From Acidimicrobium ferrooxidans (GTDB lineage Bacteria; Actinomycetota; Geothermincolia; Fen-727; Anoxymicrobiaceae), in assembly GCA_020723485.1 (NCBI GenBank), contig DYIU01000001.1, forward strand, positions 496,001 to 560,000: DNA of 64,000 nt, written 5' to 3'. The notes beneath the pieces were generated by a model. It was given only the letters and a program-made list of their open reading frames with translations. It ran no database searches and had not been told where the DNA came from. Positions within the stretch are counted from its first letter, which is position 1, and every line of letters starts with the position of its first letter. Position numbers and translations under genes: made by a program. Below are positions 54,678-54,936 of the stretch, piece by piece.

Positions 54678-54833
54678 GCTGGATTGAAGTGGTCGCTCCC
54701 TCGCTCACCATAGGGGGGGCTCACGCCCCCTGATGGCGCTCGCGCTCGCTCGCTGTCACCCCCTGACGTTGGATTGCGGGGGGACATTCCCCCCGCAAAG
54801 GAAGACCCCCCTGGTCGCTGGTTCGAATCCAGC
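54678..54833. repeat. tRNA-Ile-linked palindromic element
   Basis: 54813-54833 is a perfect 21-base inverted copy of the T-arm of tRNA-Ile (54871-54891), only 27 bases beyond the CCA end. 54776-54796 forms a 9-bp hairpin of GCGGGGGGA with TCCCCCCGC. A second G-run/C-run pair lies at about 54712-54731, and 54678-54696 is a decayed T-arm copy. The order (decayed T-arm, G/C hairpins, inverted T-arm, true tRNA) is the same as beside tRNA-Gln. No gene is seen here. Confidence 0.7.
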
Positions 54834-54859
54834 CAGGATAGCGTGGTGATTGTGTAAAG

Positions 54860-54936
54860 TGGTGGGCCTAGCTGGATTCGAACCAGCGACCTCACCCTTA
54901 TCAGGGGTGCGCTCTAACCTGCTGAGCTATAGGCCC
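54860..54936 (-). tRNA. tRNA-Ile (anticodon GAU)
   Basis: On minus, GGGCCTA pairs with TAGGCCC, and CCA is encoded at 54860-54862. The anticodon stem CACCC/GGGTG encloses CTGATAA. The T-arm is GCTGGTTCGAATCCAGC. Confidence 0.95.

Follow-up and report, generated by a model that had tools for sequence, protein, structure and literature searches.

Small non-coding elements behind tRNA and tmRNA genes carry copies of the 3' part of the host gene and appear to restore it upon insertion

Behind the tRNA-Ile and tRNA-Gln genes of the stretch analysed here (64,000 nucleotides, G000:C3:496001-560000, hereafter the window, from a source genome, G000, that is 95% complete) lie two members of a repeat family that we interpret as a small, non-coding and non-autonomous insertion element, which restores the tRNA gene that it enters and copies its own ends from it, probably by fold-back template switching; taken as a whole, this reading seems to us reasonably likely. 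Judged from the arrangement of the sequences, there is good support for a mobile insertion that restores the host tRNA. Read in the sense of the tRNA, the order of parts is the tRNA itself (positions 1-76), a spacer, an inverted T-arm, the core, a second copy of the tRNA 3' end and the old flank, and the host tRNA stays whole because this second copy, running from the T-arm to CCA, lies on the far side of the element.

At tRNA-Ile, the intact gene (GAT anticodon; found by ARAGORN and Rfam) occupies 54860-54936 on the reverse strand, and the element, whose parts are given on the forward strand, runs from near 54647 to the tRNA CCA end (54859). Its core (54647-54813) starts with CGTCGCT and ends with CCCCCCTG, is antisense to the tRNA, was aligned with nine other copies and is matched by the covariance model of the family at 54701-54813 with 103.6 bits. 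Within it lie two G/C hairpins, at 54712-54731 and at 54774-54798 (TTGCGGGGGGACATTCCCCCCGCAA), both of them conserved helices with compensatory changes in the family. The inverted T-arm together with the start of the 3' acceptor strand follows at 54813-54837, corresponds to tRNA-Ile positions 45-69 and is identical in 24 of 25 positions, 21 of them consecutive, which bears out the initial annotation in assigning this copy to tRNA-Ile and not to tRNA-Gln. Between this arm and the tRNA CCA end is a spacer of 22 nt (54838-54859), the length and part of the sequence of which are conserved between elements. The same annotation had set the left end at 54678, which falls inside the core, and had seen a decayed T-arm nearby; that piece (GCGCTGGATTGAAG) is core sequence, common to the elements at tRNA-Ser and tRNA-Thr. 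A distal tRNA copy, expected to the left of GTCGCT, is missing at tRNA-Ile, where another repeat (54473-54643) abuts the core instead.

The sister element at tRNA-Gln spans 48119-48375 and has the same plan, so that the proposal of a repeated design holds except for the decayed T-arm at tRNA-Ile. Here the distal copy of the tRNA 3' end is present (48119-48144, forward strand, antisense to the tRNA, CCA to position 52, the T-loop being lengthened by an insertion of 1 nt, GGTTCGAcATCC in sense), followed on the same strand by the core (48144-48268; covariance-model match 48159-48270, 75.6 bits) and by the inverted T-arm of tRNA-Gln (48268-48283, positions 50-65, identical in 16 of 16); the tRNA-Gln gene itself (TTG, 48302-48375, reverse strand) is intact. 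The blocks GTCGCTC and the runs of G that had been noticed in both elements are indeed common to the two, which score 104 (Ile) and 76 (Gln) bits with the covariance model. Beyond the tRNA-Gln element, at 48020-48050, there is a further T-arm-like piece (CCAACCAGGTTCGAATCCTGCGTTCAGCCC) that resembles the remnant of an older insertion.

The repeat that abuts the tRNA-Ile element belongs to a separate family of imperfect palindromes of about 170 bp. The copy in the window (54473-54643, forward strand) contains a T-arm-like sequence, GATTCAAACCTGCGG, at 54625-54640, and is 93.6% identical over 171 bp to the copy at locus L206 and 82% identical to that at L020. This repeat occurs in at least 13 places in G000, one of them immediately after the stop of a Y1-transposase ORF that adjoins tRNA-Ala(GGC), and was found in G000 and G001 only, among eight genomes searched. 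The three most alike copies in G000 (54473-54643 of the window, G000:C5:226158-226328 and G000:C11:223208-223378) adjoin tRNA-Ile, tRNA-Ala(GGC) and tRNA-Tyr.

When the tRNA-Ile element was used to search the DNA of G000, seven more strong places came up, each adjoining a tRNA or the tmRNA, and a covariance model built from 18 copies found 12 copies in G000 and 80 in 11 relatives (17 of them in G010). Among 396 genomes drawn from across the phylum, a further ten, in other families, proved to contain the element, bringing the total to about 115 copies in 22 genomes of one bacterial phylum; strict matches were also seen in two other metagenome-assembled genomes, STD1_74 and nzgw108, apparently groundwater or sediment Actinomycetota. 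Rfam had no match to the element in the window region 47900-55000, collections of phages, plasmids and viruses contained none, and the titles and abstracts returned by searches of the open-access literature did not describe such a family. The core is non-coding, measures 122-168 bp, begins with CGTCGCT in all ten aligned G000 copies and forms two long G/C hairpins, 12 of whose 22 pairs have changes on both sides; the resulting covariation score was reached by none of 500 shuffles, and controls in which the pairing was slid scored far lower.

The placement of the family is highly specific. A tRNA or tmRNA 3' end adjoins 70 of the 103 evaluable copies, representing 18 gene types (Ala, Arg, Ser, Pro, Val, Gln, Gly, Tyr, Met, Thr, Glu, Lys, Ile, Leu, His, Asn, Trp and tmRNA) in 18 genomes, and the proportion is 68 of 84 if G018 is set aside; chance placement at tRNAs is estimated at well below 1%, on the basis of about 48 tRNA genes in 3.4 Mb. 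The orientation is constant: with the core read from CGTCGCT to CCCCCCTG, the tRNA is on the opposite strand in all 70 cases, its CCA end 24-179 bp (median 40) beyond the core. In G000, the element is found at 10 of the 48 tRNA genes and at the tmRNA, in a single orientation throughout and far more often than by chance, so that the pattern, whose absence from every other tRNA would have counted against the initial annotation, is clearly present elsewhere; pieces of it persist at Asn, Ala(GGC), Ser(GCT), Thr(CGT) and Met. Tandem copies occur at some loci. Of the 33 evaluable copies that do not lie behind a tRNA or tmRNA, 17 are in G018, and several of the rest are second units of such arrays or sit at a truncated tRNA.

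In G018, most copies lie inside another palindrome, AAAAGGGTC.GACCCTTTT, which is also present in 13 uninterrupted copies. These interrupted palindromes favour the reading as an insertion element, and the 17 copies away from tRNAs count against insertion at tRNA 3' ends as a general rule. The host-specific inverted flanks of these copies had been considered as proof of copying and were set aside, given that the uninterrupted palindromes show the same outer pairing. Loci L026, L036, L046 and L275-L287 of this genome carry a REP-like palindrome, GTTGACAAAAGGGTCAGACCCTTTTGTCAAC, with site-specific extra pairing outside it of at most 12 bp (L279).

Targeting, one of the explanations first offered for the matching T-arms, is favoured both by this near-exclusive placement at tRNA and tmRNA 3' ends and by element-free orthologous loci in a close relative. 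G007 and G008 belong to the same genus; G008 has elements at tRNA-Ala, -Gln and -Tyr, and the same three loci in G007, 84-87% identical, have neither core nor distal copy nor inverted arm. Compared by eye, what follows the distal copy at G008 tRNA-Ala is similar to the sequence 3' of a G007 tRNA as far as the CCA end, the flanks of the two genomes being too diverged for the empty site to be defined base by base. The 3' flanks of tRNA-Gln and tRNA-Tyr in G007 (L192-L194) share AAAACACAAGACC..CGCT, which suggests another tRNA-tail repeat family in this element-free genome. Gene conversion, likewise offered at first, may be what keeps the arms matched, but insertion is shown by the presence of a core, a spacer and a duplicated 3' end.

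Both tRNA copies, the forward (distal) and the inverted one, are specific for the host. The suggestion that each element carries the T-arm of its own tRNA, drawn originally from two loci, now extends to more than 40 independent loci in many genera. The inverted arm spans from about tRNA position 45-53 to 62-70, matching the host in the T-stem and, in most elements, in several acceptor positions too; in several distant genomes (G206, G097, G235) it is short or undetected. The spacer of about 12-25 nt, longer and containing a hairpin in G032 and G047, is conserved between the elements of one genome and can therefore be considered element-derived. The distal copy begins at about tRNA position 46 or 52, runs to 76 and ends exactly at CCA in most single insertions. 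A target duplication of 33-47 bp that includes the 3' flank was considered and rejected: flank is shared only at a few tandem-looking or repeatedly struck loci, and single copies end at CCA. Distal and inverted copies have correlated start points (r=0.66, a value reached in 0 of 20000 permutations), as if both strands at one break had been linked to the core, one at either end.

The distal copy bears, in addition, a characteristic lesion. Among 51 distal copies scored, 15 are perfect and the others mostly have a single change, typically an extra C or T before GTTC, an A58-to-T replacement or an extra base after TTCGA. Altogether, 46 of 54 changes fall in positions 47-60 and only 2 in positions 66-76, the acceptor part being near-perfect though equally unused; read by eye, many copies of either start register have the change some six or seven bases away from the core. 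Changes due to ordinary decay would be evenly distributed, unlike these, which are concentrated in the T-arm; the scar may have been left by the joining step or may reflect selection for breakage of the T-arm.

How could a repeat of this size carry a different pair of ends at every tRNA? We infer from the end points, from which alone the steps are read, that template switching supplies the host-specific arms. The target of insertion would be the T-arm hairpin, and a strand, either nascent or broken, with its end near tRNA position 45-53 would be elongated through the core of a donor, the sequence GGTTCRANNCC, universal in T-arms, serving as homology. The roughly 11 near-palindromic bases common to all T-arms would be enough both for the switch to the donor and for a later fold-back on the recipient. 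The new 3' end would fold back on the near-palindromic T-arm of the recipient and be copied outward into the acceptor stem, producing a host-specific inverted arm with host acceptor bases, before a switch back restores the tRNA 3' end. On this view, the distal T-arm owes its lesion to that switch, as a scar, or to selection, because the re-made target is spoiled. Repair and replication proteins could be sufficient for all of this, perhaps with a nuclease or a Y1 transposase starting the process.

A survey of GIY-YIG, reverse transcriptase and Y1 transposase genes in 12 genomes yielded no mobilising enzyme. An autonomous carrier encoding a GIY-YIG nuclease was rejected as the general mobiliser, small GIY-YIG genes being confined to G032, where one lies beside the element at tRNA-Met, and G047; the other genomes of the 12 have only a long GIY-YIG frame, taken as UvrC. 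The small genes at L118 (G047) and at L129 and L057 (G032) lie inside palindromic repeats of their own next to tRNAs, and that at L118 adjoins tRNA-Met fragments.

Among the alternatives, a Y1 (HUH) transposase of the RAYT/TIRYT type, mobilising the repeats in trans on single-stranded hairpins as it does REPINs, is rather unlikely, even if several observations point in its direction. The core starts with CGTC, the tag of one REP superfamily (PMC3733652). G000 has three Y1 genes, two of which are no more than about 0.6 kb away from a tRNA 3' end with decayed element pieces; G001 has 13, one of them next to an occupied tRNA-Ala; and the element at tRNA-Ile is bordered by a transposase-associated repeat. 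That repeat, however, is of another family, which six other genomes searched do not contain, and IS200/IS605-type transposition is not expected to duplicate target DNA. Y1/RAYT genes were found in 9 of the 12 genomes and went undetected in G003, G008 and G010 (82-85% complete), although G010 has 17 copies, and it is because three genomes with copies show no Y1 gene that Y1 mobilisation is treated here as a rival and not as a conclusion. A satellite of integrative elements, recombined at the T-arm by a tyrosine integrase such that the two tRNA 3' ends represent attL and attR, seems improbable. A direct repeat from T-arm to CCA with a restored tRNA is the classical layout of tRNA-integrated elements, and the roughly fixed distance of the lesion from the core recalls an overlap region; fixed attP sites cannot, however, explain matching sequence at each of at least 18 tRNA and tmRNA types, att sites have no inverted T-arm, and the lack of matches in phage, plasmid and viral collections speaks against such a satellite as well.

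A functional RNA acting in tRNA 3' maturation or in regulation of the tRNA gene, its complementarity kept by selection, had been raised at the outset in the form of pairing with the T-arm in the precursor, and fixed orientation, fixed spacing, maintained complementarity and conserved hairpins would all suit it; we nevertheless hold it to be quite improbable. Most G000 tRNAs and the orthologous loci of close relatives lack the element, decayed remnants persist at other tRNAs, and G018 has copies away from tRNAs. In minimum-energy folds of eleven precursors, moreover, the inverted arm pairs with the T-arm and acceptor of the tRNA itself or with the distal copy, and this long predicted pairing mostly displaces the cloverleaf, which is clearly kept only at tRNA-Ser and largely at tRNA-Thr. 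Rather than offering plausible help, such predicted pairing would be a cost for the element to evade, for instance through earlier folding of the tRNA. A retroelement, in which a reverse transcriptase copies a tRNA 3' fragment and the core RNA into the locus, might account for a duplication that stops exactly at the mature CCA end, but CCA is encoded by the gene in any case, and the search for a reverse transcriptase, negative in G000 and in 9 of the 11 other genomes, makes this possibility highly improbable.

With insertion and template switching as the preferred reading, how does the family compare with described systems? Its closest described relatives are CGTC-tagged REPs and the rtT repeats of E. 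coli. The latter (Rfam RtT), at the tyrT locus, are tandem units of about 180 bp that likewise lie behind a tRNA and carry a copy of its 3' end; they are known from one tRNA in enterobacteria, with no inverted T-arm and no spread over many tRNAs, and the RtT covariance model had no match at E<=1 in window positions 47900-55000. The element shares with REPs, BIMEs and REPINs its small, GC-rich, palindromic, non-coding and dispersed nature. CGTC-tagged REPs are defined by CGTC (or TGTC/CCTC) at one end, measure 20-40 bp, have one stem of 8-9 bp with a loop of 4-5 nt right after the tag, have no known dedicated transposase and differ in that the mentions of tRNA in their description give neither a location at tRNA 3' ends nor target copies (PMC3733652). 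The core does start with the tag but exceeds that size and has two long hairpins, none immediately after it. The double-hairpin or repetitive hairpin elements of mitochondrial genomes (for example PMC2800124) are alike in having two GC-rich hairpins within a small mobile non-coding repeat. They are organellar, and are not known to target tRNA 3' ends or to carry host-specific T-arm copies. Islands and satellites integrated at tRNAs by tyrosine integrases also lie behind a tRNA with its 3' end duplicated on both sides, but they carry genes and are tied to one tRNA, whereas the present element uses many, has an inverted copy, is non-coding and too short to encode an integrase, and varies in its matching tRNA sequence with the host in place of a fixed attP. 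Integron attC sites have the consensus RYYYAAC / GTTRRRY. By eye, the ends of the element carry GGTTCGA or host T-stem sequence instead. MITEs are marked by terminal inverted repeats and a target-site duplication. Inverted and direct repeats exist here as well, but they are copied from the host tRNA and not from the element.

Genes for tRNAs are classic landing sites of mobile DNA, and known elements use one or few of them each. Only tentatively would we go so far as to propose a new class of mobile element, one that targets the T-arm hairpin of any tRNA or tmRNA, copies both of its ends anew at each target and restores the host gene. If this is true, a tiny non-coding repeat using nearly any tRNA as well as the tmRNA would be a case of natural target-templated insertion, with a mechanism that is testable, given that the end points, the shared position of the break and the T-arm scar can all be read from sequence. 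For annotators, tRNA 3' fragments behind the tRNAs of these genomes would be scars of the element, which may also explain breaks of assemblies at tRNAs.
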